This document shows, in pieces, positions 10,567-34,031 of a stretch of 64,000 nucleotides of DNA. Made by a program: the position numbers and the translations under genes. Source of the stretch: Pandoraea oxalativorans (GTDB lineage: Bacteria > Pseudomonadota > Gammaproteobacteria > Burkholderiales > Burkholderiaceae). The notes below the pieces were generated by a model that ran no database searches, had not been told where the DNA came from, and was given only the letters and a program-made list of their open reading frames with translations. Location of the stretch: assembly GCF_000972785.3 (NCBI RefSeq), contig NZ_CP011253.3, positions 1,240,001 to 1,304,000 on the forward strand, written 5' to 3'. Positions within the stretch are counted from its first letter, which is position 1, and every line of letters starts with the position of its first letter.

Positions 10567-11427
10567 TCAGGCCCGTTCCGCCGCCGCGAGGAAAGCGGGT
10601 GCGTCTGCCAGTAATACGGCGAGATCGGCAGCGCCCGACTTCACGACGCGAGCCGTGCGCTCGCGTGTGATGGAATCGGTGCCGACGAGCGCCCGCGGAC
10701 CGGCCACGCTCAGCGCTGCCAACGGCCGACCGTGAGCGTCGAGCACAGCGGCGGCGCAGGCGTCGATACCCGCTTCGAAGCCGTCCTGACTCCATGCGCA
10801 ACCCGCCTCGCGGTCGCGGGACAACTGTGCATCTAACGCCGCGTAGGTCCGCGCGCTTTGCGCAGTCGCGGCCGCCAACGGCTCAGGTCCGAGCAAGGCC
10901 CGACGGCGCTCGGTGCTCAGATGGGCCAGTAACGACCGGCCCGGCGCCGTCAGATGCGCCGTGACGCGACTGCCTGCGCGGATGTTGCTCACCAGCGGCA
11001 GGGCAGGTGTTTCGCACAAGAGGTAGCGCACCTGCGCGCCGTCGAGCACCGTAAGATAGCTCGACAACCCGGTCTCGCTCGTCACGCGCGTGAGTACGCG
11101 TCGTGCCGTGGCGAGATGGTCTTCACCTGCGAGGGCGCTGGCCGCGAGCGTCAGAAACCCGAGACCGAGCCGATGTCCGCCGTGCGGCAGCGGCTCCAGC
11201 ACACCCTCGTATTGCAGCGTTTCCACCAGACGCATGACCGTCACTCGGTTCACGCCGATGCGACGTCCGACGTCGCTGAGGTTCGCCGTCGAGCCGCCGT
11301 CCGCCACGTAGCGCAGCAGCTTGAGCGCGCGCATGACCGGCGTCACGAGACCCGTTTGCGCAGGGTCTTGTGCCTCCGTCTCAGAGGTGCCTGCGGCTGG
11401 CGCGTTGGCGGACGTTGCTTTCGTCAT
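10567..11427 (-). CDS. IclR-family transcriptional regulator
   Basis: 286 residues. An N-terminal winged HTH (about residues 30-90: VMRALKLLRYVADG, LSDVGRRIGVNRVTVMRLVETL) is followed by the IclR effector domain (VRYLLCETPALPLVSNIRAGSRVTAHLTAPGRSLLA, then GCAWSQDGFEAGIDACAAAVLD). ATG at 11427 begins the natural N-terminal tail. It lies immediately downstream of, and co-oriented with, the flavin monooxygenase gene and is likely its regulator. The GTTCAAATATGAAC palindrome upstream of that gene is a plausible target. Confidence 0.9.
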   Translation of the reverse strand: MTKATSANAPAAGTSETEAQDPAQTGLVTPVMRALKLLRYVADGGSTANLSDVGRRIGVNRVTVMRLVETLQYEGVLEPLPHGGHRLGLGFLTLAASALAGEDHLATARRVLTRVTSETGLSSYLTVLDGAQVRYLLCETPALPLVSNIRAGSRVTAHLTAPGRSLLAHLSTERRRALLGPEPLAAATAQSARTYAALDAQLSRDREAGCAWSQDGFEAGIDACAAAVLDAHGRPLAALSVAGPRALVGTDSITRERTARVVKSGAADLAVLLADAPAFLAAAERA

Positions 11428-11482
11428 ACGTTCGAATCCCTTCGTCAAAATCGGACAGCGATGCTCGGAAGTCCTGACGGAC

Positions 11483-12640
11483 TCAGGCGGCGAGCGGCAC
11501 TTGCCAGGCGTCGTATTCGTAGACCCAGTCGGCGTTGCCGCCTTCCTTGAGCCACTGATTACCGCGCGAACCGATCTGCACGCGCGCGGTGCGCTCGCGA
11601 CGCGCGGCTTCGTATCGTGCCAGTGCATTCGCCAGCGTCGCCGCGTCGGCGTTCGTACCGGCATCCGCGAGGTGGCGAGACAGTACCACAGCGTCTTCGA
11701 TGGCCATGCCTGCGCCCTGCGCCATGAACGGCATCATCGGATGGCTCGCATCGCCCAGCAGCGACACGCGATCGCGCGACCATTGCGGCAGCGGATCGCG
11801 CACGTAGAGCGCCGACTTGAGCACGCTGTCGCATGCGTCGAGCAGGGCGCGCGCTTCGCTGTGATAGTCGGCATACATGGCGCGCAGTTCGTGCACGTCG
11901 CCCGGCGCGGTCCACGATTCGAGCGTCCAGCTGTCCTGCGGTGTGGTGGCGAACACGAAGATGTCGCGTCCGAGGTTAAGCGGGAACGTCACGATCTGGC
12001 TCGACGGGTTCGGTCCCCACCACTTGGTGAACGCACCGAGATTCGGCACGCCGCTCAACTTCTCTGCGGGGACGACGGCACGGTACGCCACCACGCCGGT
12101 GAACTCCGGCGACTCCTGGCCGAACAGGCCGCGGCGCACGACCGAGTGGATGCCGTCGGCACCGATGAGCACGTCGACGTCGTCATGCGTGCCGTCGGCG
12201 AACGTCAGGCGAATGCTGCCGGTCTGTCCCGCATCGGGCGCTTCGAACGACACGAGCTTCTTGCCCAGCGCAATGGCGTGTGCAGGGACGGCTTGCTCCA
12301 GCGCCTGCAACAGATCGGCGCGATGCATCGTGAGCTGGGGCGCACCGTACTTCGTCTGCGCGGTCTGCGCCATCTCCAGACTCGACGTCGTTTCACCCGA
12401 GTCCCACATGCGGCTGATGCGATGGCTCGGCTGCGCGGCCGTCTTGCGAAGTTCGTCACCAACGCCCAGTCCGTCCAGTGCACGCACCGCATTCGGCGTC
12501 AGGTTGATGTCCGCACCGACGCGCGCGAACTGCGACGCCTGCTCATATACGCGCACACGAAAACCTGCACGGAGCAATCCGATGGCGGCGGCCAGACCGC
12601 CGATGCCGGCACCGTTGATGCCGATGAGGGGGGGTTGCAT
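11483..12640 (-). CDS. FAD-dependent aromatic hydroxylase (6-hydroxynicotinate 3-monooxygenase / salicylate hydroxylase-like)
   Basis: 385 residues, class A flavin monooxygenase. The FAD-binding Rossmann motif is INGAGIGGLAAAIGLLRAG, followed by an Arg-bearing MHRADLLQAL segment, the DG motif VLIGADGIHSVVR, and GD motif VSLLGDASHPMMPFMAQGAGMAIEDA. The C-terminal WVYEYDAW and overall layout are close to NicC, which hydroxylates and decarboxylates 6-hydroxynicotinate, and to salicylate 1-hydroxylases. The substrate is therefore likely a hydroxylated (hetero)aromatic acid. ATG at 12640 has AAGGA eight bases upstream and is preferred over the ATG at 12649. The gene is transcribed away from the porin and transporter genes. 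Confidence 0.85.
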   Translation of the reverse strand: MQPPLIGINGAGIGGLAAAIGLLRAGFRVRVYEQASQFARVGADINLTPNAVRALDGLGVGDELRKTAAQPSHRISRMWDSGETTSSLEMAQTAQTKYGAPQLTMHRADLLQALEQAVPAHAIALGKKLVSFEAPDAGQTGSIRLTFADGTHDDVDVLIGADGIHSVVRRGLFGQESPEFTGVVAYRAVVPAEKLSGVPNLGAFTKWWGPNPSSQIVTFPLNLGRDIFVFATTPQDSWTLESWTAPGDVHELRAMYADYHSEARALLDACDSVLKSALYVRDPLPQWSRDRVSLLGDASHPMMPFMAQGAGMAIEDAVVLSRHLADAGTNADAATLANALARYEAARRERTARVQIGSRGNQWLKEGGNADWVYEYDAWQVPLAA

Positions 12641-12688
12641 GGGGCACATCCTTTAACGAGCGTATCGATGAATCGGAAAAAATAAAAC

Positions 12689-12721
12689 GTTCAAATATGA
12701 ACATGATGTTCAAATATTATT
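12689..12721. promoter_or_regulatory. Palindromic IclR-type operator with direct repeat
   Basis: The perfect palindrome GTTCAAATATGAAC (12689-12702) is followed by a second GTTCAAATATT copy at 12708-12718, 19 bp further on. It lies 49 bp upstream of the flavin monooxygenase start in an AT-rich patch. Its form fits IclR-family sites; assignment to the adjacent regulator is inferred. Confidence 0.6.
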
Positions 12722-12967
12722 GTTTGATTCGGTCGGCCGCAAGTCTTCCTCGGGTAAATCCCGAGTCAGGGCATTGATGTCGAGCGCCATCGGAACGGGA
12801 CTTCCGGCAACGCCGACGGGACGTTTGGTGTCAAAGCAGTTGCCTGTGCCAACGGACATTTCCTACTCAACACACGCGCGTTATCACGCCAATTTGCTGT
12901 CATCAATTCGTGCATCTCCGCTGCGAGCGACAAGAGTCTCCTGGCCTAAGCTTCGCTCAGTTGGTTT

Positions 12968-13000
12968 CATAAGTAATCCAACGTTTTACAGGTGGAACGT
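12968..13000 (+). promoter_or_regulatory. Shared motif upstream of porin (co-regulation element, copy 1)
   Basis: CATAAGTAA, 4 bp, then ACGTT-N10-AACGT. The same motif with identical spacing recurs at 14391-14423 upstream of the ABC transporter genes. It lies 100 bp upstream of the porin start. The remainder of 12722-13099 shows no gene. Confidence 0.6.
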
Positions 13001-13099
13001 CGCAAAACGGGCGTATCGGTTGCGGGCTGGCCGTGCCTGGCTGCGCTTTTGGCGGACGTATCCATCGTTCTTGAATCATCGAACGACAGGAGTTCAAAG

Positions 13100-14209
13100 A
13101 TGAAGCGGTTTCCGATGGGGCGGATCCTGGGCATGACGACGGTCGCGGCGGCAACGCTGCTGGCGCTCGGCGTGCCGGTCGCAGCACACGCACAGAGCAA
13201 CGTCACGCTGTACGGCAGCATGGATGCCGGGGTGGCGTTCGTGAACAACCAGGGCGGCAGTGCTAACTGGATTGCACAGCAGGGCGGCTCGCAGCCGGAC
13301 CGCTGGGGTCTGCGTGGCGTGGAAGATCTGGGCGGCGGCAATCGCGCCATCTTCCTGCTGGAAAACGGCTTCTCGACCCTCACGGGCAACACGATCAAGG
13401 CGGGATCGATGTTCAACCGCCAGTCGTGGGTCGGTTTGCAGTCGGACAAGATGGGCACGCTCACCATCGGCCACATGACCACGTTCAACTTCGACTGGCT
13501 GGGCCCGTTCAGCACGGCCTATCTGGGCATGAACTGGTACATGTTCCACCCGGGCAACCTCGACGAACTCGCCAACACGTCCGTCGTGCAGGTCGATAAC
13601 TCGGTGCGCTACGTCACGCCGGATTACATGGGCTTCAAGGCCGGTGCGATGCTCTCGTTCGGCAACAACACGAACTTCGCGAACGGTCGCAAGTGGAGCG
13701 TGGCCGCGAACTACACGAACGGCGGCTTCAAGGCCTCGGCCGTCTACTCGAACGAGAACAACCGCACGCCGAACGTTGCGGCGCTCGGCGGGGCCACGTT
13801 CCAGGGCCAGCCGGTGGCGACCTATGCGGCATCGAACGTCGAGAACATGGGTGCGGGCGTGTCCTATGGCTTCGGGCCGTGGCTGCTGCACGCGCTCTAT
13901 ACGCGCGTGAAGCTTCAGTCCCCCGGCTACAACGACACCTATCAATCGTTCGACGCCGGTGTGAACTTCGCGACGAGCGTGCCGAACACGATCACGTTCG
14001 GCGCGGCCACGACCAATATGTCCGGCAAGCGCTGGACACAGGTCAGCCTTGGTGACGTCTACGCGTTCTCCAAGCGCACGCAGGTCTACGTGAGCGGTGC
14101 GTACCAGCACGCAAGTGGCAACGGCGCGGTGACGGCGATCAATACGATCAGCCCGTCGTCGACGTCGAACCAGCTCGTGATCATGTCGAGCGTGCACCAC
14201 TCGTTCTGA
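13100..14209 (+). CDS. Gram-negative porin (OmpC-like, Burkholderia type)
   Basis: 369 residues. The signal peptide ends VAAHAQS, and the mature start SNVTLYGSMDAGVAF is the hallmark of Burkholderiales trimeric porins. Alternating beta-strands follow (WGLRGVEDLGGGNRAIFLLENGF, RQSWVGLQS, LFSTAYLGM-like loop 3), ending MSSVHHSF with terminal Phe. AGGAG lies eight bases before the start. It forms a diffusion channel in the outer membrane. Because it shares an operator-like motif with the following transporter operon, it probably supplies uptake of that pathway's substrate. Confidence 0.93.
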   Translation: MKRFPMGRILGMTTVAAATLLALGVPVAAHAQSNVTLYGSMDAGVAFVNNQGGSANWIAQQGGSQPDRWGLRGVEDLGGGNRAIFLLENGFSTLTGNTIKAGSMFNRQSWVGLQSDKMGTLTIGHMTTFNFDWLGPFSTAYLGMNWYMFHPGNLDELANTSVVQVDNSVRYVTPDYMGFKAGAMLSFGNNTNFANGRKWSVAANYTNGGFKASAVYSNENNRTPNVAALGGATFQGQPVATYAASNVENMGAGVSYGFGPWLLHALYTRVKLQSPGYNDTYQSFDAGVNFATSVPNTITFGAATTNMSGKRWTQVSLGDVYAFSKRTQVYVSGAYQHASGNGAVTAINTISPSSTSNQLVIMSSVHHSF

Positions 14210-14255
14210 CGCTCTCGCGCGCTTTTACCTTTTTCACCCAGTGGTCTCTCTTGAT

Positions 14256-14290
14256 GCGCCGGCCGGCTTTTGCCCGTCGGCGCTTTTTTT
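14256..14290 (+). terminator. Terminator after the porin gene
   Basis: GC-rich stem (GCGCCG...CGGCGC) around a TTTT-containing loop, followed by seven T residues, 47 bp after the porin stop. Confidence 0.8.
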
Positions 14291-14358
14291 GCCCAAAACA
14301 TCGCGCGCCTCCCCCGGAAAGCCCATGAATTCGGGTTTCCCCTAGTCAAAAAACAATT

Positions 14359-14385
14359 TTGACTGCGGCCATCACTCCCTATAAT
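14359..14385 (+). promoter_or_regulatory. Sigma-70-like promoter of the catabolic/transport operon
   Basis: TTGACT (14359-14364) and a perfect TATAAT (14380-14385), separated by 15 bp, lie about 140 bp upstream of the ATPase gene. The palindromic motif at 14391-14423 covers the expected start of transcription, a typical repressor position. Confidence 0.65.
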
Positions 14386-14390
14386 TGATC

Positions 14391-14423
14391 CATAAGTAAA
14401 TCAACGTTTCGTATATGAAACGT
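14391..14423 (+). promoter_or_regulatory. Shared motif upstream of ABC transporter operon (copy 2)
   Basis: CATAAGTAA, 4 bp, then ACGTT-N10-AACGT. The core GTTTCGTATATGAAAC is a near-perfect 16-bp palindrome of IclR type. The likely regulator is the IclR protein encoded within this operon at 18695. Confidence 0.65.
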
Positions 14424-14521
14424 GACGCGAAAGAGAAAGACGGGCTGGCAAGCCGTGCACGCGAACAGTCGCCGCAGGCTGCCCGAGGCAAGTTGAACAT
14501 CCAGAAACACGGTGGTTTCCC

Positions 14522-15390
14522 ATGCTCAGGTCGATTCAATTGAAGGACGCAAACGTAGCCGAGGCGTATGCCGACGCGCGCCACGCGCAGCCAGCAGCGG
14601 CACCGTTGCCGTTCGCTATCGAATATCGCGGCGTCACGCGTCGTTTCAAAAATCGCCAGGGCAAGGGCGAGATGACCGCTGTCTCCGATGTCTCCATCGG
14701 TATCAAGGCCGGTGAGTTCGTCTCGCTGATCGGCCCGAGCGGCTGCGGCAAGAGCACGCTGCTCAACATGGGCGCCGGTCTGTACGCCCCCAGCGAAGGG
14801 CAGGTGACGCTGGCAGGCAAGCCGGTGCGCGGCCCGTCGCAGCAAGTCGCGTTCATGCTGCAAAAGGATCTGCTCATGCCGTGGCGCTCGATTCAGAAGA
14901 ACGTCGAACTCGGCATGCAGATTCGTGGCCGCAGCAAGGCCGAGCGCGCCGAAGTCGCGAAGGCGCTGCTCGCGCGCTGCCACCTCAAGGGCTTCGAGAA
15001 CCACTACCCGCACCAGCTCTCGGGCGGCATGCGTCAACGCGCGGCACTGCCCGCACGCTGGCGGTCGAGCCGGACGTGTTGCTCATGGACGAACCGTTCT
15101 CGGCGCTCGATGCGCAAACCAAGATGGTGCTCCAGCAAGACCTCGCGCAGATGCTCGCCAGCGAAGGCAAGACGGCGCTAATGATCACCCACGATCTCGC
15201 GGAAGCCATTGCGCTGTCGGACCGTGTGTTCGTGATGAGCGAGCGTCCCGGCACGATCATCGAAGAGATCACCGTCGATCTGCCGCACCGCGACAACCCC
15301 ATCGAGCGCCGCAAGCAAGCGGGCATGAACGAGTACGTCGCGCATCTGATGGAACTGCTCAAGGTCGGTCGCGACGACCACCTCGGTTGA
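14522..15390 (+). pseudogene. ABC transporter ATP-binding protein (SsuB/TauB-like), frameshifted
   Basis: The frame opens at 14522 and encodes Walker A GPSGCGKST, the Q-loop region FMLQKDLLMPWRS and signature LSGGMRQRAAL. It then goes out of frame at about 15049. Translation resumes in the next frame with ARTLAVEPDVLLMDEPFSALDAQ (Walker B and D-loop) and the H-loop MITHDLAEAIALSD, to a stop at 15390. Inserting a single G after 15049 restores a complete protein of about 289 residues, so this is a one-base deletion between signature and Walker B. As written, the product lacks Walker B and would be inactive. A sequencing error cannot be excluded, since the flanking genes look healthy. Its role would be energising uptake with the permease at 15465. 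Confidence 0.88.
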
Positions 15391-15391
15391 G

Positions 15392-15421
15392 CCGCATCGA
15401 TCCGCATCGATCCGCATCGAT
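15392..15421 (+). repeat. Triple 10-bp tandem repeat
   Basis: CCGCATCGAT occurs three times head to tail immediately after the ATPase stop codon and before the permease gene. Copy number could vary by slippage; no function is evident. Confidence 0.8.
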
Positions 15422-15464
15422 GAGAAATGGTTCGCCCCTCGCACAAGACACTGGAATCTCCGCT

Positions 15465-16247
15465 ATGAAATCCCTTTCCAAAACGCAACTGACTGCCGGT
15501 AGCTTCGTGCTGCTGCTGCTCTTCGCGGCCGTGTGGCAATGGGGCCCGACGGCGTTCGGCGTGCCCGAATTCGTGTTGCCCAAGCTGTCGTCGACCCTGG
15601 TCGAAGGCGTGCGCATGTTCCAGGTGGAAAACCTGTGGCTGCACATCGGCGTGACGGCGCTCGAAGTGATCGCCGGTTTCGTGATCGGCTCGGCATTGGG
15701 CGTGCTGATCGGCGTGATCCTCGGCTTGTCGCCGTCGACCGAAGCCATGCTCTCGCCGTACATCCTCGCGTTGCAGATCGCGCCGAAGGTCGCCTTCGCG
15801 CCGCTGTTCGTGATGTGGATGGGCTACACGATCTATCCGAAGATTCTGGTCGCGGTGCTGATCGTCTTCTTCCCCGTGATGATCAACGTGCTGGGCGCAG
15901 TGCGCTCGGTCGATCCCGACATGGTCAATCTGGTGCGCGCGCTGTGCGGCCGCCGCTGGCAGATCTTCTGCTTCGTGGAATTCCCGTCGGCCATGCAGGC
16001 GTTGTTCGCAGGCCTGCGCATCGCGTCGACGCTGGCCGTGATCGGCGTGACCGTTGGCGAACTGGTCGGCGGTGACCGTGGCCTCGGTTATCTGCTGGTG
16101 TACGGCGAAGGGCAGGGCAATACCGCGATGGTGTTCGTCGCGATTGCCGGGCTGACCGTCATCGGTATCGCAGCCTACGCGGCGGTGGTTTGGCTGGAGC
16201 GTCGCGCACTGCATTACGTGCCTCGTGCGGCCATGAACATCGCCTGA
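15465..16247 (+). CDS. ABC transporter permease (SsuC/TauC-like)
   Basis: 260 residues with about six transmembrane helices. The BPD_transp_1 EAA-like cytoplasmic loop reads VRALCGRRWQIFCFVEFPSAMQALFAGLRIA. The family is the nitrate/sulfonate/taurine type inner-membrane permease, which also serves pyrimidine precursors and aromatic acids. ATG at 15465 starts the first hydrophobic segment; an upstream ATG at 15420 has no ribosome-binding site. It works with the ATPase upstream and with the binding proteins encoded at 24495 and probably 33006. Confidence 0.9.
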   Translation: MKSLSKTQLTAGSFVLLLLFAAVWQWGPTAFGVPEFVLPKLSSTLVEGVRMFQVENLWLHIGVTALEVIAGFVIGSALGVLIGVILGLSPSTEAMLSPYILALQIAPKVAFAPLFVMWMGYTIYPKILVAVLIVFFPVMINVLGAVRSVDPDMVNLVRALCGRRWQIFCFVEFPSAMQALFAGLRIASTLAVIGVTVGELVGGDRGLGYLLVYGEGQGNTAMVFVAIAGLTVIGIAAYAAVVWLERRALHYVPRAAMNIA

Positions 16248-16274
16248 GCGCCGGACTTCACAAGGACTCGAATC

Positions 16275-17075
16275 GTGAACGAACTGTCGACCCCCCCGGT
16301 GATGCCGCTCGACATCGACGCACTGCCGCCGCTCGATGGCAAGAAACTGCTGATCACCGGCGGTGCGCGCGGCCTCGGCGAAGGCTTCGTCCGTGCAGCT
16401 GTAGCGCGTGGCGCACAAGTGACGATTGCCGACATCGCCGCCCAAGCCGGTGAAGCGCTGGCCGCCGAATTGCAAGACGCCGGATACGCAGTGTCGTTCG
16501 TGCGCGTCGACCTGTCGGACCCCGCATCGGTGGACGCGGCTGCGCAAGCGGCGGGCCAGCAAATGGGCGGTATCGACGGGCTCGTCAACAACGGTGCGAT
16601 CACCAATTCGGGCGGCAAGATGGCCACCGAGCTGAGCATCGAGACGTGGGACGCCGTGATGAACGTCAATGTGCGCGGCACGTGGCTCATGACGATGGCC
16701 GCACTGCCGTTCCTGCGTGCCTCGGGGCAGGGCCGCGTCGTGAATGTCGCGTCCGACACGGCGCTGTGGGGCGCGCCGCGCCTGCTTGCCTACACCGCCA
16801 GCAAGGGCGCGGTCATGTCGATGACGCGTTCGCTCGCACGCGAACTCGGCCCGGACGGCATCACCGTCAACGCCATCGCGCCGGGGCTCGTCGAAGTCGA
16901 AGCCACGGCGTATGTCCCGGCGGCGCGTCATCGTCACTATCTGGAGGGACGTGCGTTGCCACGCGCGCAAGTGCCGGACGACGTCGTCGGCCCGGTGCTA
17001 TTCCTGCTCTCAGACGCTTCCCGATTCGTGACCGGACAGGTTCTGCCGGTCAACGGCGGCTTCGTCATGCCCTGA
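16275..17075 (+). CDS. Short-chain dehydrogenase/reductase (SDR)
   Basis: 266 residues. The NAD(P) motif TGGARGLGEG, the NNG motif (LVNNGA), catalytic Ser in NVASDTA, and Y-x3-K in YTASKGA are all present, and the C-terminal GQVLPVNGGF is typical of classical FabG-type SDRs. An Asp after beta-2 (TIADIA) favours NAD. GTG start. It follows the permease by 27 bp within the operon and probably oxidises a secondary alcohol or cis-diol intermediate. The substrate is unknown. Confidence 0.88.
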   Translation: MNELSTPPVMPLDIDALPPLDGKKLLITGGARGLGEGFVRAAVARGAQVTIADIAAQAGEALAAELQDAGYAVSFVRVDLSDPASVDAAAQAAGQQMGGIDGLVNNGAITNSGGKMATELSIETWDAVMNVNVRGTWLMTMAALPFLRASGQGRVVNVASDTALWGAPRLLAYTASKGAVMSMTRSLARELGPDGITVNAIAPGLVEVEATAYVPAARHRHYLEGRALPRAQVPDDVVGPVLFLLSDASRFVTGQVLPVNGGFVMP

Positions 17076-17115
17076 CGAGCCACTCTCATTCGCAACGCCT
17101 TTCAGGAGTTAGATC

Positions 17116-17673
17116 ATGGCGCAAGCCGACGCTAAAAACACCGCGACGCCGCAGGCCGTCGAGAGCTGGACGCAGACCGAAGGTCAGGCATTCGGTGACT
17201 GGCTGGAGACCCGCGTCGCCCGTTTCTCGACGCGCAAATACGACTGGGATGCCCTCAAGTTCCAGGCCGACTACGACCCGAAGTACCGTCGCGCGCAGAT
17301 GCGCTACGTCGGCACGGGCGGCACCGGTGTGGCCAAGGACGTCAACACCGTGCCCGCCGGTCACTTCACGTTCTCCACGATGGTGATTCCGGCCGGCAAC
17401 ATCGGCCCGAGCCATATCCACATGGATGTCGAGGAAATCTTCTTCGTCATGCGCGGAAAGATGAAGGTGATCTGCGAGCGTGACGGTGAAACGTGGGAAG
17501 CCATTCTCGGCGAGCGCGATCTGATTTCGGTGCCGCCGGGTGTGTACCGCACGGAAATCAACATTGGCGACGAAGACGCGCTGATGTGCGTGATGCTCGG
17601 CTCGCAAAAGCCGGTCACGCCGACGTATCCGCCCGATTCGCCGCTTGCGAAGATCAAGCGCGAAATGAAGTAA
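17116..17673 (+). CDS. Cupin-domain protein
   Basis: 185 residues with one cupin barrel in the second half. Motif 1 is GPSHIHMDVEEIFFVMRGKMKV, with His-x-His and Glu as metal ligands, and motif 2 lies around LISVPPGVYRTEIN. The second-motif His is replaced, so metal binding may be incomplete. Such proteins are dioxygenases, isomerases or sensors in catabolic operons. A GGAG ribosome-binding site precedes the ATG, and the gene sits 40 bp after the SDR gene. Confidence 0.8.
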   Translation: MAQADAKNTATPQAVESWTQTEGQAFGDWLETRVARFSTRKYDWDALKFQADYDPKYRRAQMRYVGTGGTGVAKDVNTVPAGHFTFSTMVIPAGNIGPSHIHMDVEEIFFVMRGKMKVICERDGETWEAILGERDLISVPPGVYRTEINIGDEDALMCVMLGSQKPVTPTYPPDSPLAKIKREMK

Positions 17674-17784
17674 GTCCGCAAGGAAAAGCCCGGTGTCCGT
17701 GTGTCGAATGCGCGCACGGCATCGGCAGAAATTCACGCAGTCGGAAGTCTGCATCAAATTCGCAAACGTTAGACGAAAGCCGCC

Positions 17785-18693: not shown

Positions 18694-18694
18694 A

Positions 18695-24408: not shown

Positions 24409-24494
24409 CGTTGGCGGCAGAAGTGGGCAATGACAGTGGCAAGCCGCGATGCACGGGGCATCGCGGATATCCGAAACTTGAGCGAGGCAAAGAT

Positions 24495-25508: not shown

Positions 25509-25527
25509 GCGAGAGGGCGACAGAGCA

Positions 25528-26090: not shown

Positions 26091-26143
26091 AACATCATAT
26101 AGCGCGATGGCCGCTCGGGCGGCGCTCGCGATGGAGGTCCCCC

Positions 26144-27175: not shown

Positions 27176-27190
27176 GCCGTCGGCAACCTA

Positions 27191-27658
27191 ATGGACGCGA
27201 CCATGCAAAACCCTTCCGCCATCAAAGCCGAACGCATTCGTGCGCAAGCCGTGCCCGATCTCGCGACGGCCACATGGAGCAATGGCATCCGATTCGGTAA
27301 CGAAATCCTGATGTCGGGGATGACTGCGCATCCCGCTACGCGCGACGCCGAGAAGCCGCTGACGACTTACGAGCAGACGATGGTGGTGCTCGGCAAAATC
27401 CGCGCGCTGGTCGAGGCTGGCGGTGGCCGTCTTGCCAACGTCTACAAGCTTGTCGTGTACGTGACCGATATCGCCGACAAGGATGATGTCGGCCGCGCAC
27501 GCCGCGAGTTTTTCGCGGACGTCGCGGCAAACGGCGGCGCTTATCCGTGTTCGACGCTCGTGGCGGTCAGCGGTCTGGTCTTTCCGGAACTGCGTGTGGA
27601 GATCGAGGCGTTTGCACGTCTCGACATCGATTTGTCTGTCGCGGCCATCGCAAGTTAA
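27191..27658 (+). CDS. RidA/YjgF-family protein (possible imine/enamine hydrolase)
   Basis: 155 residues with the Rid fold (SNGIRFGNEILMSGMTAH, VYKLVVYVTDI, VEIEAFARLD). At the position of the catalytic Arg of E. coli RidA (R105, within PARS) this protein has YPCS, so that Arg is missing, while the Glu of VEIEA is kept. Rid homologues in aromatic-amine pathways act as 2-aminomuconate deaminases, a role compatible with the neighbouring dehydrogenases and dioxygenase. ATG at 27191 or 27203 are both possible. Confidence 0.85.
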   Translation: MDATMQNPSAIKAERIRAQAVPDLATATWSNGIRFGNEILMSGMTAHPATRDAEKPLTTYEQTMVVLGKIRALVEAGGGRLANVYKLVVYVTDIADKDDVGRARREFFADVAANGGAYPCSTLVAVSGLVFPELRVEIEAFARLDIDLSVAAIAS

Positions 27659-27703
27659 GCCGGGCGGACGTCAAGTCAATCAGCAACATCAGAGAGCGGC
27701 GTT

Positions 27704-28669
27704 ATGAGCAAGTCAACCCTGTCGGCAATGGTGCGCACGCTTCGTTATGAGGCGGCGGGCATCATGAGCATCGAACTCGTGCCTGCGGCGGGCAGCAGCA
27801 CACCGTTCCCGGCGTTCACGCCCGGCGCGCACATCGATCTGCACCTGCCGAGCGGACTGGTGCGCAGCTACTCGCTGGTCAATACGCCGGACGACGAAAA
27901 CCGCTACGTGCTGGGCATTCTGGCCGACCCCAAGAGTCGTGGCGGCTCGCGTTTCATACACGAGAACTTCCGTGTCGGCATGACGCTCGACATCTCGGCC
28001 CCGCGCAATCACTTCGCACTGGACGAGACCGCAGCGCATTCGGTGCTGGTCGCAGGCGGCATCGGCGTGACGCCGATTCTCTGCATGTATCGTCGTCTGC
28101 GTTCGCTGGGTCGCAGCGTCAAGCTGATGTACTGCGCGCGCACCGCACCGCAAGCGGCGTTCGTCGAAGAACTGAATGGGCTGGGTGGCGACGTCACCTA
28201 TCACTTCGACGATCAGCACGACGGCAAGCCCGCGTCGCTCGCAGCATTTCTGGCCAATCAGCCCGCGGGTACGCACGCTTATTGCTGCGGCCCGGGTGTG
28301 ATGCTCGACGCCTTCGAAGTCGCGTGTGCCGATGCGGGCATTGCGAACGTTCACACCGAGCGCTTCGCGGCCGCGCCGGACGCGCCGCCGCCCGCGACGT
28401 CGGAGGGCTACGTCGTCACGCTGGCGAAGTCGGGCAAGGAGATTGCCGTGCCTGCGGGCGCGACCTTGCTCGATACCTTGCTCGCCGCAGGTATCGACGC
28501 AGAGCACAGCTGCATGGAAGGCGTTTGCGGGGCATGCGAGACGCGCGTGCTCGAAGGTTGCCCCGATCACCGCGACTCCGTGCTGAGCGCGTCGGAGCGC
28601 GCCGGGAACAAGGTCATGATGATCTGCGTGTCCGGTTGCAAGGGCGAGCGTCTGACGCTCGATCTCTGA
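27704..28669 (+). CDS. Ferredoxin-NAD(P) reductase of the oxygenase (phthalate dioxygenase reductase / VanB-like)
   Basis: 321 residues in three domains. They are a flavin-binding barrel (GAHIDLHLPSGLVRSYSLVN), an NAD(P) domain (VAGGIGVTPILCMYRRL) and a C-terminal plant-type [2Fe-2S] ferredoxin with cysteines in SCMEGVCGACETRV and MICVSGC. This FMN-NAD-ferredoxin order is that of class IA reductases. It transfers electrons to the Rieske oxygenase encoded at 26144 and probably also to the orphan oxygenase at 31570, which has no reductase of its own. Confidence 0.92.
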   Translation: MSKSTLSAMVRTLRYEAAGIMSIELVPAAGSSTPFPAFTPGAHIDLHLPSGLVRSYSLVNTPDDENRYVLGILADPKSRGGSRFIHENFRVGMTLDISAPRNHFALDETAAHSVLVAGGIGVTPILCMYRRLRSLGRSVKLMYCARTAPQAAFVEELNGLGGDVTYHFDDQHDGKPASLAAFLANQPAGTHAYCCGPGVMLDAFEVACADAGIANVHTERFAAAPDAPPPATSEGYVVTLAKSGKEIAVPAGATLLDTLLAAGIDAEHSCMEGVCGACETRVLEGCPDHRDSVLSASERAGNKVMMICVSGCKGERLTLDL

Positions 28670-28714
28670 GCGCCTCTTCATTTATTCGAGACTTCCGATT
28701 TTCCCGAGACTGCC

Positions 28715-29686
28715 ATGACGATTCTGGGCATCGAACAAATCACTTACGGGGTCACCGACCTCGACACCTGCCGCCGGTTTCTGGCCGACTGGGGCCTGAC
28801 GGAGATCGCCGCCGATGCCAATGGCGTGCGCTTCGAAACGCTCAACGGTGGCCGCGTGCTCGCCGTGCGTCACGACGATCCGTCGCTGCCGCCCGCCATG
28901 GAAGACGGGCCGACGCTGCGCGAAGTGACGTGGGGGGTGACCCGCGCAGACGAAGTGGCGGCTATCGCCGAGCGTCTCGCCGATCAGCCGGGCTATTTCT
29001 TCGAGGACGGTGCAGCGGGTTGCATCGACCCGAACGGTCTGGCCGTGCGCGTCGAAGTGAGCGCCAAGCGTGCGCTGGACGTGCAGGGCGCGCCGACGAA
29101 TCCGTGGGGACTCCCCGCGCAGCGCGTGAATACGCCGAGTCCGGTGTACGAACGTGCGCAGCCGATCGAGGTCGGCCACGTGGTCTTCTTCACGAATGCG
29201 CTCGCCGCCACGCAGAAGTTCTACGAGGACAAGCTCGGTTTCGAGCTGTCGGACCGGTATCCGGATCGCGGCGCGTTCATGCGTTGCGCGCCGCACGGTG
29301 GCCACCACGACCTGTTCCTGCTGGCGCTGCCTAACGGCAAGTGCGGCCTGAATCACGTGGCGTTCACGGTGCGTGACATCCACGAGGTATTCGGCGGAGG
29401 CATGCATATCGACCGGTGCGGTTGGGAAACGCAGTTGGGGCCGGGCCGTCACCCGATTTCATCGGCGTATTTCTGGTACTTCAAGAATCCGTGCGGTGCG
29501 CTTATCGAGTATTACGCCGACGAGGACATCCTCACACCGGAATGGCAGCCGCGCGACTTCGAGCCGGGACCGACGGTGTTCGCGGAGTGGGCCGTGGACG
29601 GCGGGCTGGACGGCAATACACGCCGTCAGAAGAAAGGCGGTGAAGCGCCGACCGGCAAGTTCATGACCGATACGGCCAAGCGCTGA
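28715..29686 (+). CDS. Type I extradiol (VOC) dioxygenase
   Basis: 323 residues, two VOC domains. The metal ligands of type I extradiol enzymes are visible in the C-terminal domain: His in VGHVVFF (about 154), His in LNHVAFTV (about 213) and Glu in LIEYYAD (about 264). The motif around WETQLGPGRHPISSAYFWYF matches the catechol 2,3-dioxygenase active-site region. It presumably opens the dihydroxylated ring made by the oxygenase and dehydrogenase. It is the last gene of the operon; a terminator follows. Confidence 0.88.
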   Translation: MTILGIEQITYGVTDLDTCRRFLADWGLTEIAADANGVRFETLNGGRVLAVRHDDPSLPPAMEDGPTLREVTWGVTRADEVAAIAERLADQPGYFFEDGAAGCIDPNGLAVRVEVSAKRALDVQGAPTNPWGLPAQRVNTPSPVYERAQPIEVGHVVFFTNALAATQKFYEDKLGFELSDRYPDRGAFMRCAPHGGHHDLFLLALPNGKCGLNHVAFTVRDIHEVFGGGMHIDRCGWETQLGPGRHPISSAYFWYFKNPCGALIEYYADEDILTPEWQPRDFEPGPTVFAEWAVDGGLDGNTRRQKKGGEAPTGKFMTDTAKR

Positions 29687-29742: not shown

Positions 29743-29773
29743 AGGGGGCATGCGCAACGCATCGCCCCCTTTT
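29743..29773. terminator. Terminator at the end of the catabolic operon
   Basis: Stem AGGGGGCATGCG / CGCAT..CCCCCT with a CAA loop, followed by TTTT. It lies between the rightward dioxygenase gene and the leftward glutathione peroxidase gene. Confidence 0.8.
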
Positions 29774-29794
29774 GCGTTTTCAGGCGATGCGGCG

Positions 29795-30340
29795 TTACTT
29801 CGCGAGTTCGGCGTCGATGGCGGCGACCAGACGCGGGTCGTCGGCCTTGACGTCCGGCGAGAAGCGGGCCACGACCTGACCGTTGCGGCCGATCAGGAAC
29901 TTCTCGAAGTTCCACAGCACGTCGGCGGGGTTGTCGCGCTCGACACCGAAGCCCTTCAGACGCTCGCGGAACGGACCTTCGCCGGTGGCTTCCGGTTTGG
30001 CGTCGACCAGTGCGCTGTACAGCGGGTGGCGGTCGTCGCCCAGCACCGAGATCTTCGCGAACAGCGGGAACGTGACGTTGTATTGCGTGGTGCAGAAGTC
30101 GAGGATCTCGGCATCGGTGCCCGGTTCCTGTCCCTTGAAGTTATTGGCGGGGAACGCCAGTACTTCCAGACCTGCGGCGCGCTTGTCTTCGTACAGACGC
30201 TCCAGTCCTTCATATTGCGGCGTCAGACCGCACTTCGATGCGACGTTCACAACGAGACGCACCTTGCCTGCGTAATCGCCCAGCGAGGCGGCGGCGCCGT
30301 CGTTGCGATTGACGGCGATGGTTTCAATATTCGTGCTCAT
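29795..30340 (-). CDS. Glutathione peroxidase family (thiol peroxidase)
   Basis: 181 residues. Catalytic Cys in NVASKCGLTPQYEGLE (no selenocysteine), glutamine and asparagine environment in FPANNFKGQEPGT, and the Trp/Asn motif WNFEKFLIGRNG. It is a full-length cytoplasmic Cys-GPx that reduces hydroperoxides using thioredoxin or glutathione. ATG at 30340 with AGGAAA upstream. It is probably independent of the catabolic genes but could protect against oxygenase uncoupling. Confidence 0.92.
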   Translation of the reverse strand: MSTNIETIAVNRNDGAAASLGDYAGKVRLVVNVASKCGLTPQYEGLERLYEDKRAAGLEVLAFPANNFKGQEPGTDAEILDFCTTQYNVTFPLFAKISVLGDDRHPLYSALVDAKPEATGEGPFRERLKGFGVERDNPADVLWNFEKFLIGRNGQVVARFSPDVKADDPRLVAAIDAELAK

Positions 30341-30449
30341 GAAAATTTCCTGTCCTTTGAGTGGTGCACATGCGGCCCGTGAATGGCTGTCGGGGCAATT
30401 CGCCGAGTGTAGCGTAAGGCCGGTCGGCGCGCTGAGTGTCGGCTGGACG

Positions 30450-31406
30450 TCAATGAATCTGGTTATCGAGCAGGTCTCGTGTGCGTTGACCGAACGCGCG
30501 CGGAGTATCGCCCGCCCAGCGCTTGAACGCGCGTGAGAAGGCTTTCTCGGAGACGTAGCCGACCTTGTCGGCAACCTCGGCCACGCGCAGCGTGCGCGTG
30601 GCGAGCGCCTCGGCTGCGAGGTGCATACGCACGCCGGTCAGGTGCGCCATAGGGGCCGTGCCGACAAGGGCAGTAAAGCGCGCAACGAAGCGTGAGCGCG
30701 ACATCCCGGCCAGTTCGGCCAGCTTGCGCACATCCCAGTGCAGCGACGGCTCACGGTGAATGGCCAGCACCGCGCGGCCGACCTGCTTGTCCAGCAGCCC
30801 CTTGAGCCAGTGGGCACCCACGCGTTCATTCTGCAAGACATGCGCGCGCACCATCTGCACGCACAGCACGTCGGACAGGCGTGCCGCCGCGATCATCCAG
30901 CCCGGTTTGCACGCCATCGACTCTTCGATGAAGTTCTGTAGCGTCGCTTTCAACCATGGGGCGACGGCCGGGTCGTCGTGCCGGATATGAATGACGGGCG
31001 GAAGGATGGCGAAGATCGGATGCCGGTGCGCGGAGGCGAATCCGACGATGGCCGTGTGCAACTCGCAGGCGGGACCTTCGGCACCCACGATCATTGCCAG
31101 CGGCGTATCGGAGCGTGGCGTGATGCCACGCTCGGCAAGCAGATCGTTGAACGGCACGGCGGGGACGTCCGGCGTACTCGACATGCGATGCGCGCTGCCA
31201 TGCGGCAGCAACACGACGTCGCCCTCGCGAACCAGCACCGGGCTTTCTCCGTCGACGTGCAGCCAGCACGACGCTCCCCTGCAGATCCGGAAGGGGATGC
31301 CCTGCACAGGTTCCTTATCGAACGCCCAGGGTGCATGCAATGTGAAATGGCCGGTCACGACGGCGGTGGCGTGCAAATCTGCCAGAACTTCGCTCAGTTG
31401 ATCCAT
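30450..31406 (-). CDS. AraC-family transcriptional regulator (cupin_6 type)
   Basis: 318 residues. An N-terminal cupin-like effector domain (GASCWLHVDGESPVLVREGDVVLLPHGSAH) is followed by two C-terminal HTH motifs (LHWDVRKLAELAGMSRSRFVARF and LRVAEVADKVGYVSEKAFSRAFKRWAGDTPRAF). ATG at 31406 begins MDQLSEVLADLHATAVV, the family N-terminus. It is divergent from the second Rieske oxygenase gene with 163 bp between them and is very likely its activator. Confidence 0.92.
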   Translation of the reverse strand: MDQLSEVLADLHATAVVTGHFTLHAPWAFDKEPVQGIPFRICRGASCWLHVDGESPVLVREGDVVLLPHGSAHRMSSTPDVPAVPFNDLLAERGITPRSDTPLAMIVGAEGPACELHTAIVGFASAHRHPIFAILPPVIHIRHDDPAVAPWLKATLQNFIEESMACKPGWMIAAARLSDVLCVQMVRAHVLQNERVGAHWLKGLLDKQVGRAVLAIHREPSLHWDVRKLAELAGMSRSRFVARFTALVGTAPMAHLTGVRMHLAAEALATRTLRVAEVADKVGYVSEKAFSRAFKRWAGDTPRAFGQRTRDLLDNQIH

Positions 31407-31569
31407 GACGTCTCGTTTGTTTTTGTGGGGCGGCCATGCGTGTCGGTACTGAATCGACAGGAATTCGTACGGTTGAGACGAACGGCAACTCAATTGGATT
31501 TTGCGGTAGTTCCTTGCGCGCGTCTTGCGATCAAAAATCGTTGCATCTCCCGCCACTTGCGACTCGATC

Positions 31570-32874
31570 ATGCTTAGTCCAGAAAAGAACAAACTTCTCA
31601 CCGAAGTCGGCCCCGGTACCGCGATGGGCGACTATCTGCGCCGTTACTGGCATCCGGTCGCCGGTGTCTCGGAATTCGACGACAAGGCCGTGCGCCCGAT
31701 TCGCCTGTTCGGCGAAGACCTGGTCCTCTACAAGGACTTGTCCGGCCACTACGGACTGGTGCAGCGACGCTGCCCGCACCGCAACGCCGATCTGGCCTTC
31801 GGCATCGTGGAGCAATGCGGCTTGCGCTGCGCGTACCACGGCTGGGAGTTCGGACGTGACGGCGCGTGCACGCATCAACCCTTTGAAGAAATCGTCGATC
31901 CGCAGGCCCGTCTGCGTCAGAAGACGCGAATCACCGCTTACGAAGTGCGCGCGAAGGCCGGACTGTTGTGGGCCTACATGGGGCCGCTCCCCGCCCCGCA
32001 GTTGCCCGATTGGGAGCCGTTCAGCTACGAGCACGGTTTTGCTCAGGTGGTCATGGCCGAGATTCCCTGCAACTGGTTCCAGTGCCAGGAGAACTCCATC
32101 GACCCGGTGCATTTCGAGTGGACGCATAACAACTGGACGGCGCGTCAGCAAGACGCCGGGGCCGCCTATGTGCCCACGCATTTGAAAGCGGCGTACGAAG
32201 AGTTCGAGCATGGCTTCGTCTACAAGCGTTTGCGCGCGGCGGAGACCGAGGAGAACGTGATGTGGACGGTCGGACGTGTCACGTTGTGGCCGAACGCGTT
32301 CTATCTCGGACACCACTTCGAGTGGCGCGTGCCCATTGACGACGAAAACACGCTGTCGGTGTTCTGGGTCTTCAACCGTGTACCGAAGGAGCAGGAGCCG
32401 TATGTCCAGTCCCGTATCCCGACGTGGTACGGCCCGTTATACGACGAGAACGGTGACTGGATTACGTCGCACGTCGCGAATCAGGACTTTGCCGCGTGGG
32501 TCGGACAAGGCCGCATTACGGACCGCTCGAAAGAGACACTGGGGGCGAGCGATCGCGGCATCGTGATGATGCGCCGGAAGTTCTTCGAAGAACTCGAAGC
32601 CGTCGCCGGTGGCGCCGTCCCGAAGGGACTGATTACCGATCCTGCCAGGAACGAACGTGTGTTCCTGCCCTCGGCCTGCCGAGAGGAAATGCTCACAGGC
32701 TTGACGCGTGAGGCGCTCGCCGCGCATCCGCTACTCGGCCCTTACCTGCATGACTTCTTCGGACAGGCAGGGCAGCCCGACGAGGTTCGCGAAGCGTATG
32801 AGCAAGCCGTCGGCCAGAAGATGCGCGGAGCGAAGTTCTTTACGGTCCACGGGGCCGGTGAACCCGAGGCGTAG
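31570..32874 (+). CDS. Rieske non-heme iron oxygenase, second copy (phthalate 4,5-dioxygenase-like)
   Basis: 434 residues, longer than the first oxygenase. Rieske ligands RRCPHRNADL and RCAYHGWEFG (about residues 68-90), and iron-site region NWFQCQENSIDPVHFEWTH. The size and the 'SPEKNKLLTEVGPGTAMGDYLRRYWHPV' N-terminus fit the phthalate 4,5-dioxygenase / LigXa-like aromatic O-demethylase and ring-hydroxylating group. No reductase is adjacent, so it probably uses the one encoded at 27704. It is followed 131 bp later by a binding-protein gene. Confidence 0.9.
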   Translation: MLSPEKNKLLTEVGPGTAMGDYLRRYWHPVAGVSEFDDKAVRPIRLFGEDLVLYKDLSGHYGLVQRRCPHRNADLAFGIVEQCGLRCAYHGWEFGRDGACTHQPFEEIVDPQARLRQKTRITAYEVRAKAGLLWAYMGPLPAPQLPDWEPFSYEHGFAQVVMAEIPCNWFQCQENSIDPVHFEWTHNNWTARQQDAGAAYVPTHLKAAYEEFEHGFVYKRLRAAETEENVMWTVGRVTLWPNAFYLGHHFEWRVPIDDENTLSVFWVFNRVPKEQEPYVQSRIPTWYGPLYDENGDWITSHVANQDFAAWVGQGRITDRSKETLGASDRGIVMMRRKFFEELEAVAGGAVPKGLITDPARNERVFLPSACREEMLTGLTREALAAHPLLGPYLHDFFGQAGQPDEVREAYEQAVGQKMRGAKFFTVHGAGEPEA

Positions 32875-33005
32875 TCGGCGCCTCGCACAGGCGTAGTAGC
32901 GGCGAAGCAGACGCGCGCGGCATGCACGGTGCGCGCCGACAGAGCTGCGAACGATGTGACTGATGTGGTGCATCCGAAACAAGACTTCAATAACGTGAGG
33001 ACAAA

Positions 33006-34031
33006 GTGAACCTGAAACGGAACGTTTGGACGGCCTGGGGCTTTCGGGCACTGCGCAACATATTGGCGGCGGGGATCGTTGCGGGGACGGTGTGTTCGGC
33101 TCAGGCGCAGGCCGGTGCGCCGGAGAAAGAGGTGACATTCTTGCTGGCCGCACCGCCGGGCGAGCTGGCCTTTGCGCCGTTCATGCTTGCGCAGAGCAAG
33201 GGATATTACGCGCAGGAGGGGTTGAAGATCCGCTGGATTGCGGTGCACGGCGGTGCGGCGGTTGGCAAACAACTGGCAGCAGGCAATGGCGACTTGGGCG
33301 ATGCGCTCGGGGACACGCCCATCCTGTTGCGCAACAACGGCGTGAACGTCAAGGCGGTTGCCTTGCTTGGCGGTCACCCGCTCCATCAGTTCATCACGCG
33401 CGCCGACCGCAATATCGCGCAGGCCAGCGATCTCAAGGGCAAGACGCTGTCCGTCATGTCGTATGAGGATACGTCGTATTACGTCACGCTCGGCATTCTC
33501 GCGGCGGGAAAGTTGACGAAGAGCGATGTGACGATTTACGCCGGGGGGCCGAACGGTGTCTGGCAGGACGTTGCCAACGGCAGATCCGACGGGCTTGTCG
33601 GAACGCCCGAGTGGGGGGCTCGCGTCGAGGCGGCGGGTGTCAAGGTGCATTATCGGCCGACGGATCAACTGACGCCGGGGATGGGACAGGCGATCATCGC
33701 ATCGGACAAGAAGATCGCGTCGGATCCGAAGACGATTGCCAAGTTCGTCAGAGCGACGATGAAGGCGATGACGGAGATCGAAGCCGATCCGGTGGCCGCC
33801 TCCAAAGCGTATGTGGCGGCTGTACCGTCGTATGCGGATAAGCTCGATTTCGTGACGAAGGTGCTGACTTACTACGCCAAGTATGTGTTCCCCAGTCGAT
33901 TGCGTCCGGGCGAGTTCGATCTGGCAATCGTATCCCACGTTCACAACTCGTACGTCGATAAAAAGGTAGTGCGCGCCGCACAGCCGATAGAGTCGCTTTA
34001 TACGAATCAGTTTATTCCAGGGAAAATGTAA
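33006..34031 (+). CDS. ABC transporter substrate-binding protein (NMT1/SsuA-like), orphan paralogue
   Basis: 341 residues with a signal peptide ending CSAQAQA. It is collinear with the protein encoded at 24495 through the whole length: KGYYAQEGLKIRW, GNGDLGDALGDTP, KTLSVMSYEDTSYYVTLG, VGTPEWGARVEAAGVK, and the terminal SLYTNQF. GTG start with GAGG five bases upstream. There is no permease or ATPase beside it, so it probably delivers a related compound to the transporter at 14.5-16.2 kb. Confidence 0.9.
   Translation: MNLKRNVWTAWGFRALRNILAAGIVAGTVCSAQAQAGAPEKEVTFLLAAPPGELAFAPFMLAQSKGYYAQEGLKIRWIAVHGGAAVGKQLAAGNGDLGDALGDTPILLRNNGVNVKAVALLGGHPLHQFITRADRNIAQASDLKGKTLSVMSYEDTSYYVTLGILAAGKLTKSDVTIYAGGPNGVWQDVANGRSDGLVGTPEWGARVEAAGVKVHYRPTDQLTPGMGQAIIASDKKIASDPKTIAKFVRATMKAMTEIEADPVAASKAYVAAVPSYADKLDFVTKVLTYYAKYVFPSRLRPGEFDLAIVSHVHNSYVDKKVVRAAQPIESLYTNQFIPGKM

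Follow-up and report, generated by a model that had tools for sequence, protein, structure and literature searches.

A conserved catabolic gene unit of Pandoraea oxalativorans with exchangeable entry genes and a possible role in kynurenate and xanthurenate degradation

Within a 64,000-nucleotide stretch of the 6.5 Mb Pandoraea oxalativorans genome assembly (contig NZ_CP011253.3, positions 1,240,001 to 1,304,000; hereafter the window, whose own coordinates are used below), comparison across genomes gives good support for reading the genes at 10567-29686 (~19 kb) as a single conserved catabolic pathway unit, and this unit is probably co-regulated. We propose, with the chances evenly balanced, that it is a regulon for the degradation of quinoline-2-carboxylates, most likely kynurenate and xanthurenate. 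These two acids form the best-supported class of substrate at roughly an even chance, the main rival being another bicyclic or nitrogen aromatic acid. The first-pass annotation of the window had reasoned that the region is one coherent catabolic cluster, with a NicC-like hydroxylase, a porin and an ABC (ATP-binding cassette) transporter among its members, and that its substrate is probably a nitrogen-containing aromatic acid; the first point is borne out by a gene order shared by 12 of 12 Pandoraea regions, and the second we retain at the same strength. The unit is recognised by its gene set, the linkage of those genes, conserved palindromes, residues of catalytic type and entry genes that are exchangeable between lineages, and from these we infer the substrate, every reaction and the binding regulator.

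Gene identities in the window are based on gene calling together with Pfam and NCBIfam scans, and all gene types that the annotation had named were recovered where it had placed them. The unit consists of the following features, for which the numbered labels are used from here on.

10567-11427, minus strand: IclR-type regulator IclRa (Pfam IclR_C), paired with the flavin hydroxylase
11483-12649, minus strand: FAD-dependent aromatic hydroxylase of the NicC/salicylate-hydroxylase group (nearest solved structure 5eow)
12983-12998, no strand: operator-like palindrome in the gap between hydroxylase and porin, with 2 mismatches in the window
13100-14209, plus strand: porin (Pfam Porin_4), uptake
14406-14421, no strand: operator palindrome GTTTCGTATATGAAAC ahead of the main operon (motif scan)
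14522-15390, plus strand: ABC transporter ATPase of SsuABC type, in two open reading frames (14522-15181 and 14881-15390)
15465-16247, plus strand: ABC transporter permease of SsuC/TauC type (Pfam, NCBIfam)
16275-17075, plus strand: short-chain dehydrogenase/reductase SDR1, proposed dihydrodiol dehydrogenase (Pfam, NCBIfam)
17116-17673, plus strand: cupin (Pfam), with H100, H102 and E106 kept
17785-18693, plus strand: alpha/beta hydrolase (Pfam), with Ser125, Asp249 and His276 kept
18695-19630, plus strand: IclR-type regulator IclRb, within the operon (nearest model PcaR/PcaU/PobR, under its cut-off)
19627-20442, plus strand: short-chain dehydrogenase/reductase SDR2, proposed ring-cleavage-product reductase (NF005468, 430 bits against a cut-off of 266)
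20435-22087, plus strand: thiamine pyrophosphate (TPP) enzyme, proposed 2-oxo-acid decarboxylase (NF005470, 931 bits against a cut-off of 495)
22080-22898, plus strand: aspartate-dehydrogenase-like enzyme, with a His that aligns with a His of solved 2dc1
22912-24408, plus strand: aldehyde dehydrogenase, proposed to oxidise a formylethyl side chain (Pfam, NCBIfam)
24495-25508, plus strand: ABC binding protein of NMT1/SsuA type (Pfam, NCBIfam)
25528-25872, plus strand: protein of 114 residues with no Pfam match (weak ferredoxin-like model)
25872-26090, plus strand: HTH_62 protein (Pfam), a frequent companion of Rieske oxygenases
26144-27175, plus strand: Rieske oxygenase RO1 of VanA_C type (Pfam), proposed kynurenate 7,8-dioxygenase
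27191-27658, plus strand: RidA-like protein (Pfam), auxiliary
27704-28669, plus strand: FNR-type reductase with a C-terminal 2Fe-2S domain, probable electron donor of RO1 (Pfam, NCBIfam)
28715-29686, plus strand: type I extradiol dioxygenase, proposed 7,8-dihydroxykynurenate 8,8a-dioxygenase (Pfam, ligand residues)

A search with the extradiol dioxygenase, whose nearest named relatives are those of P. aquatica (98% identity) and P. commovens (97%), gave 286 relatives, and the best 80 loci were kept, 15 from Pandoraea and 65 from elsewhere. Each of the 15 Pandoraea loci has RO1, the HTH_62 protein, IclRb, SDR2, the TPP enzyme, the aspartate-dehydrogenase-like enzyme, the aldehyde dehydrogenase, the extradiol dioxygenase, the reductase, the 114-residue gene and the binding protein; the RidA-like protein and a GPx were each found in 14 of them. 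Flanks of at most 10 kb missed genes lying upstream, and 12 of the 15 Pandoraea loci were extended further in that direction. In each of these 12 regions the gene order from porin to RO1 is identical, and 11 of them hold the IclRa-hydroxylase pair and RidA, L278 being without them; the pair recurs in L192 and L281. The reductase stands behind RO1 in all 10 Pandoraea stretches that reach that far. Past the extradiol dioxygenase lie GPx and AraC genes (both on the minus strand), a second Rieske oxygenase (RO2) and a second NMT1 binding protein. AraC and RO2 occur in only 2 of the 15 Pandoraea loci, which rules out RO2, AraC and the second binding protein as members, and RO2 occurs in none of the 65 others. 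Because the Pandoraea order is kept up to 29686 and RO2 and AraC are rare, we take 10567-29686 as the unit and place 29750-34031 outside it. The synteny comparison that the annotation had called for therefore leaves its cluster (10567-34031) standing as far as 29686, with core order and linkage kept, and removes the remainder, second Rieske oxygenase included, as a separate and variable segment that is not conserved.

Outside Pandoraea we followed a core of 11 genes: RO1, HTH_62, SDR1, SDR2, the cupin, the hydrolase, IclRb, the TPP enzyme, the aspartate-dehydrogenase-like enzyme, the aldehyde dehydrogenase and the extradiol dioxygenase. At least 10 of the 11 lie on one strand (identity at least 25%) in 59 of 60 sufficiently long non-Pandoraea loci, the exception, L049, having 8. 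Records of Acinetobacter baumannii, Klebsiella aerogenes, Novosphingobium, Caballeronia, Paracoccus, Nitratireductor, Pseudosulfitobacter and Streptomyces contain most of the core, which is also found in Burkholderia and Paraburkholderia, including chromosome 2 of Paraburkholderia xenovorans LB400 (NC_007952, about 3.154-3.175 Mb, L070); single genes have been lost across lineages, and IclRb was not found in Streptomyces L185. An order-level draw of 399 genomes gave 25, one of them the window's own, with a relative of the extradiol dioxygenase at E ≤ 1e-30. Twenty of the matched places were read: 13 with at least 48% identity (L113-L125, some of them on short contigs) have at least three other core genes, and 7 with at most 45% (L126-L132) have no cluster, L126 holding weak relatives of the aspartate-dehydrogenase-like and TPP enzymes. 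A phylum-level draw used the cupin, which among the core proteins is the most strongly conserved outside Pandoraea (77-89% identity), and found it in 9 of 398 genomes, again counting the window's own.

Around this constant core, transporters and electron carriers are exchanged between lineages. The Paraburkholderia form has a Rieske ferredoxin and a ferredoxin reductase (each in 62 of the 65 non-Pandoraea loci) and an MFS transporter (60 of 65), all of which are replaced in the Pandoraea form by one FNR-type reductase and the ABC transporter. Further forms carry TctC-type or ABC components, or have a flavodoxin-domain protein next to an FAD oxidoreductase. The window's RO1 shares 66-75% identity with its counterparts in the loci of family f49 and 50-55% with those of Paraburkholderia-type loci. 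A related porin (53-56%) adjoins the operon in L137 and both operator and operon in L248 and L249. The annotation's remark that this exact set of genes is undescribed is thus misleading, the core being widespread and the auxiliaries exchanged. Its use of RidA as an argument for the substrate likewise falls away, since RidA is dispensable: it was not found in L278 or L046, and L049 alone of the 65 non-Pandoraea loci has it. The ATPase reading frame is broken near 15045 in the window strain and forms a single open reading frame of 279-289 residues in 12 of 12 Pandoraea relatives; the split may be a genuine loss or a sequencing error.

The HTH_62 ('recombinase-like HTH') gene stands directly 5' of the Rieske oxygenase gene in many lineages, and a few genes away from it in Nitratireductor and Pseudosulfitobacter; its product may serve the oxygenase as an accessory instead of binding DNA. 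In Pandoraea-type clusters the 114-residue gene lies 5' of the HTH_62 gene, and a fold search with a model of its product (predicted local distance difference test score, pLDDT, 69) gave no match at E ≤ 0.001.

The classical aerobic kynurenate ('quinoline') pathway of pseudomonads (EC 1.14.99.2, 1.3.1.18 and 1.13.11.10) runs through dihydrodiol formation, dehydrogenation, extradiol cleavage, side-chain reduction, decarboxylation and aldehyde oxidation, and in pathway databases the cleavage product of 7,8-dihydroxykynurenate is reduced, decarboxylated and oxidised to 5-(2-carboxyethyl)-4,6-dihydroxypicolinate. For each of these steps the cluster has a plausible enzyme type. To our knowledge the enzymes of this pathway are orphan enzymes; the pathway is known from enzymology, and for the cluster a substrate is proposed from its genes. 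The classical enzymology is attributed to 'Pseudomonas' ATCC 11299b, a strain later named P. acidovorans. No gene cluster for kynurenate breakdown was found in the literature searched, which covered few subscription papers and is weak evidence of absence. PMC11354673 cites work on the pathway with Pseudomonas extracts from about 1961 by Horibata et al., and mentions the conversion of kynurenic acid by certain pseudomonads into glutamate, alanine and organic acids.

In the route that we propose, the porin and the SsuABC-type transporter would import the acid. RO1, supplied by the reductase, would convert kynurenate to its 7,8-dihydrodiol and SDR1 would convert the dihydrodiol to 7,8-dihydroxykynurenate, which the NicC-like hydroxylase, as a xanthurenate 7-hydroxylase, could instead form from xanthurenate. 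The extradiol dioxygenase would then open the carbocycle beside the ring junction, SDR2 would reduce the side-chain double bond, the TPP enzyme would strip CO2 from the resulting 2-oxo acid, and the aldehyde dehydrogenase would oxidise the aldehyde to 5-(2-carboxyethyl)-4,6-dihydroxypicolinate. Opening of the pyridine ring and handling of the imine or enamine nitrogen would fall to the hydrolase, the cupin and the aspartate-dehydrogenase-like enzyme, with RidA helping; the ring left at that stage could give an iminoaspartate-like imino- or enamino-dicarboxylate, on which the aspartate-dehydrogenase-like enzyme might plausibly act.

Residues of catalytic type are conserved in several of these enzymes. 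The extradiol dioxygenase has a glyoxalase domain, matches the HpaD and catechol 2,3-dioxygenase models below their cut-offs, and keeps its 2-His-1-Glu site (H155, H214, E265) in 21 of 21 diverse sequences, as is characteristic of the type I extradiol family. S125, D249 and H276 of the hydrolase are kept in 19 of 19 sequences, and H100, H102, E106 and E107 of the cupin in 21 of 21. A model of the cupin (pLDDT 69), nearest to MncA, oxalate oxidase, ketoisomerases and quercetinase at TM-scores of at most 0.46 by query length, appears to resolve the protein to a cupin barrel only. With the canonical meta-cleavage pathways of the catechol, biphenyl and HpaD types the cluster shares an alpha/beta hydrolase, an aldehyde dehydrogenase and a type I extradiol dioxygenase whose metal site is 2-His-1-Glu; it differs from them in its TPP enzyme, aspartate-dehydrogenase-like enzyme and cupin, and scans of the cluster proteins (Pfam, NCBIfam) detected neither the hydratase nor the aldolase that lower meta pathways usually have. 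A TPP enzyme and an aldehyde dehydrogenase would suit a cleavage product that keeps an aromatic ring with a 2-oxo-acid side chain. The kynurenate route fits this set, in which these two enzymes stand in place of the hydratase and aldolase and an enzyme of amino-acid-dehydrogenase type is present.

Two entries into the pathway are proposed. The window cluster has SDR1, as do 63 of the 65 non-Pandoraea loci, and SDR1 adjoins RO1 in Paraburkholderia-type, Acinetobacter, Klebsiella, Paracoccus, Nitratireductor and Pseudosulfitobacter loci, although not in Pandoraea. In a plasmid collection, RO1 relatives (E ≤ 1e-40) were found in 26 records, all of them among the 30 that have the cupin. RO1 is missing from four cupin records, of which two are plasmids of Vibrio nigripulchritudo; in the other two the match covers only 21% of the cupin. 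The hydroxylase is present (56-60% identity) on both Vibrio plasmids, and the one that was read, L135 (Vibrio was seen as plasmid records only), also holds the hydrolase, the extradiol dioxygenase, SDR2, the TPP enzyme, the aspartate-dehydrogenase-like enzyme and the aldehyde dehydrogenase, with no separate SDR1; its hydroxylase adjoins an IclRa relative (41%). Hydroxylase relatives at E ≤ 1e-70 are present in 11 plasmid records, six of them at 56% identity or more and within ~20 kb of the cupin, and five, from Rhizobium and Sinorhizobium (46-47%), outside the cupin records. Linked copies occur also in L116, L154, L158 and L159, and in L192 ~10 kb beyond the cluster; the 65 non-Pandoraea loci, read with flanks of at most 10 kb, yielded none, and L278 has none beside the cluster. 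The NicC-like hydroxylase therefore looks like an alternative entry, and on the simplest reading it and the pair of RO1 and SDR1 would deliver the same diol.

A third entry is only hinted at. Large subunits of xanthine-dehydrogenase-family molybdenum hydroxylases, enzymes typical of N-heterocycle hydroxylation, stand beside the cluster at 63-87% identity in L117, L118, L120 and L285, which is 4 of 285 loci, many of these being short or repeats of one place. They would point to an N-heterocycle substrate, as a hint and no more, because the nearest solved relative is 4-hydroxybenzoyl-CoA reductase, which is also the best model, under its cut-off. A role as quinaldate oxidase is weakly suggested, the models spanning the xanthine-dehydrogenase family. 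The neighbour in L119, considered as a further enzyme of this type, proved unrelated (22-32% over pieces). On the Caballeronia NK8 plasmid (L285, 11305-20536) a second partial module of ferredoxin, HTH_62, Rieske, TPP and extradiol genes lies with the molybdenum hydroxylase 3' of a complete cluster.

Taken to its full breadth, our proposal is that the cluster holds the missing genes of the kynurenate pathway with modular entries, in which the Rieske oxygenase and SDR1 would serve kynurenate, the NicC-like hydroxylase would serve xanthurenate and a molybdenum hydroxylase, present in some lineages, would serve quinaldate or a related precursor, and that it has spread, partly on plasmids, among soil bacteria and opportunistic pathogens; we place this just short of an even chance.

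A number of observations weigh against the assignment to kynurenate and xanthurenate. The group to which RO1 belongs also contains demethylases, so its formation of a dihydrodiol is only putative, and Novosphingobium L136 has RO1 with no SDR1 found in the region. Vibrio L135 has its hydroxylase and TPP genes each in two frames and an extradiol dioxygenase of only 34-35% identity, so that this cluster may be non-working or different. Hydroxylase copies of 66-72% identity lie on contigs other than that of the cluster in G255 and G158, and in the genome of L049 at a place with no established connection to it. Among solved structures, those closest to the TPP enzyme are acetolactate synthases rather than decarboxylases; the steps of the cupin, the hydrolase and the aspartate-dehydrogenase-like enzyme have no fixed order; and individual core genes went undetected in certain loci, the hydrolase in L117 and L120 and the aspartate-dehydrogenase-like gene in L121. 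No kynurenine gene was seen among the subset of neighbours scanned. Tryptophan 2,3-dioxygenase was never found beside the cluster in 26 genomes, 20 of which have a match (19 over the cut-off), either on another contig or, in the window genome, ~2.8 Mb away; contig ends of the drafts could hide adjacency. A link to tryptophan catabolism is supporting rather than defining, as the use of kynurenate from outside needs none.

The absence of tryptophan dioxygenase from the neighbourhood in all 26 genomes is in keeping with a real pathway for some other bicyclic or nitrogen aromatic acid, for instance another hydroxyquinoline carboxylate or an indole or benzopyrone carboxylate, in which the entries would meet at a catechol and the TPP enzyme and aldehyde dehydrogenase would shorten a 2-oxo-acid side chain. 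Linkage and logic are explained as well by such an acid, and the sequence itself names no substrate; we consider this a serious contender with a chance of about one in three. What speaks against it is the close fit of the step order and of a nitrogen-handling dehydrogenase to the kynurenate route, and we know of no other described route with a step order of that kind.

That RO1 is instead an O- or N-demethylase, similar to VanA or DdmC and acting on a methoxylated or N-methylated aromatic acid before ring cleavage, is unlikely. Its VanA_C domain, its nearest solved relative (the dicamba O-demethylase DdmC, E 2.4e-18) and the Novosphingobium locus with RO1 and no SDR1 are what such a pathway would predict; yet scans of the cluster proteins turned up no gene for handling formaldehyde or methyl groups, SDR1 comes immediately after RO1 in several lineages, and the Vibrio records, with the flavin hydroxylase and without RO1, are better explained by ring hydroxylation.

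A nicotinate- or pyridine-type pathway begun by the hydroxylase, nicotinate and picolinate being among the candidate substrates of the first-pass annotation, is very improbable. The two do share a flavin hydroxylase of one family, the nearest solved relative being 6-hydroxynicotinate 3-monooxygenase (NicC, 5eow, E 8.7e-77), but the best NCBIfam match is 3-hydroxybenzoate 6-monooxygenase at 247 bits, far under the cut-off of 459, the hydroxylase is optional in the cluster as described above, and a type I extradiol enzyme belongs to the core. Scans confined to the cluster proteins detected no nicotinate dehydrogenase, no 2,5-dihydroxypyridine dioxygenase, no downstream amidase or isomerase and no further nic enzyme. 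Another nitrogen aromatic, 2-aminophenol, is degraded within the same host group, and PMC3790839 is reported to place the amnRJBACDFEHG genes of P. xenovorans LB400 on chromosome 1, unlike the present cluster, which lies on chromosome 2 and has other enzymes. Chance adjacency of unrelated operons describes 29750-34031 well, given its sporadic AraC and RO2 genes, and is hardly credible for the unit, whose core is kept across phyla and whose palindrome is common to Pandoraea, Burkholderia, Paraburkholderia and Klebsiella.

This palindrome, GTTTC-N6-GAAAC, stands at 14406 with 0 mismatches, and a scan of the window at up to 3 mismatches gave 3 matches (the one at 14406 counted twice) against 0.2 expected, a number reached by 2 of 100 shuffles. 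In the 12 extended Pandoraea regions it is present in every hydroxylase-porin gap, with 1 mismatch, and in every porin-ATPase gap, where 10 copies are perfect, one has one mismatch and that of L279 has the form GTTCC-N6-GGAAC. Of 63 Paraburkholderia-type loci tried, 8 were dropped (no ferredoxin match or less than 120 bp upstream), and all 55 testable loci have GTTCC-N6-GGAAC (at most 1 mismatch) 40-60 bp ahead of the ferredoxin gene; the same stretches gave 2 further, off-register matches. In Klebsiella the GTTTC form lies directly ahead of the ferredoxin gene (7191 of L134), and in Burkholderia L248 and L249 two copies flank operon and porin; a strict scan for the GTTTC form found no match in many other loci. 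We infer that IclRb binds the palindrome, through which it would act on the operon, IclRa acting on the hydroxylase gene. Promoter and terminator scans returned no more than shuffled sequence did.

Genome-wide, with one mismatch allowed, 15 genomes have 33 matching places, 21 at the cluster (in 15 of 15 genomes) and 12 elsewhere. Four of the latter were inspected: three precede a chemoreceptor gene and one, in L247, lies inside a gene and is probably there by chance. The three, palindrome-like sites in three Paraburkholderia genomes (L244, L245 and L246), stand close 5' of a TarH-type chemoreceptor gene (85-86% identical) and may mean chemotaxis toward the substrate. In the window genome sites with up to one mismatch are near chance, since there are 6 where the reversed control gives 4. 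That genome has just one further perfect site (site 5628 of L219, G000:C1:4406627), which precedes a branched-chain-type ABC transporter operon; the sequence of this site recurs in 11 of 12 further Pandoraea genomes, the adjoining genes having been read in the window genome only.

If the assignment to kynurenate and xanthurenate is true, genes would be assigned to the orphan enzymes of the kynurenate pathway, which could be tested in P. xenovorans LB400, a safe laboratory strain. Kynurenate and xanthurenate, as tryptophan signals made by hosts, could then be consumed by carriers of the cluster, and since these include Acinetobacter baumannii, Klebsiella, Burkholderia and Pandoraea, one would have to ask whether such bacteria clear the signals. 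Whatever the substrate, a widespread extradiol pathway in which a TPP enzyme and an aldehyde dehydrogenase replace hydratase and aldolase, and in which entry oxygenase, electron carriers and transporters are swapped, merits study.

Elsewhere in the window, 30450-34031 holds the AraC gene, RO2 and the NMT1 binding protein with no adjoining reductase; RO2, the second Rieske oxygenase (31570-32874), has as its nearest solved relative 7fhr, a 'putative phthalate 4,5-dioxygenase'. At 382-3393, a stretch of lower GC content, an AAA ATPase (AAA_21, a 'putative AbiEii toxin' family match) accompanies an ISL3-family transposase. Between 42000 and 52000 the GC content falls to 0.57-0.59, confident genes are few and a tRNA-Leu lies at 49478, and this stretch is possibly a genomic island.

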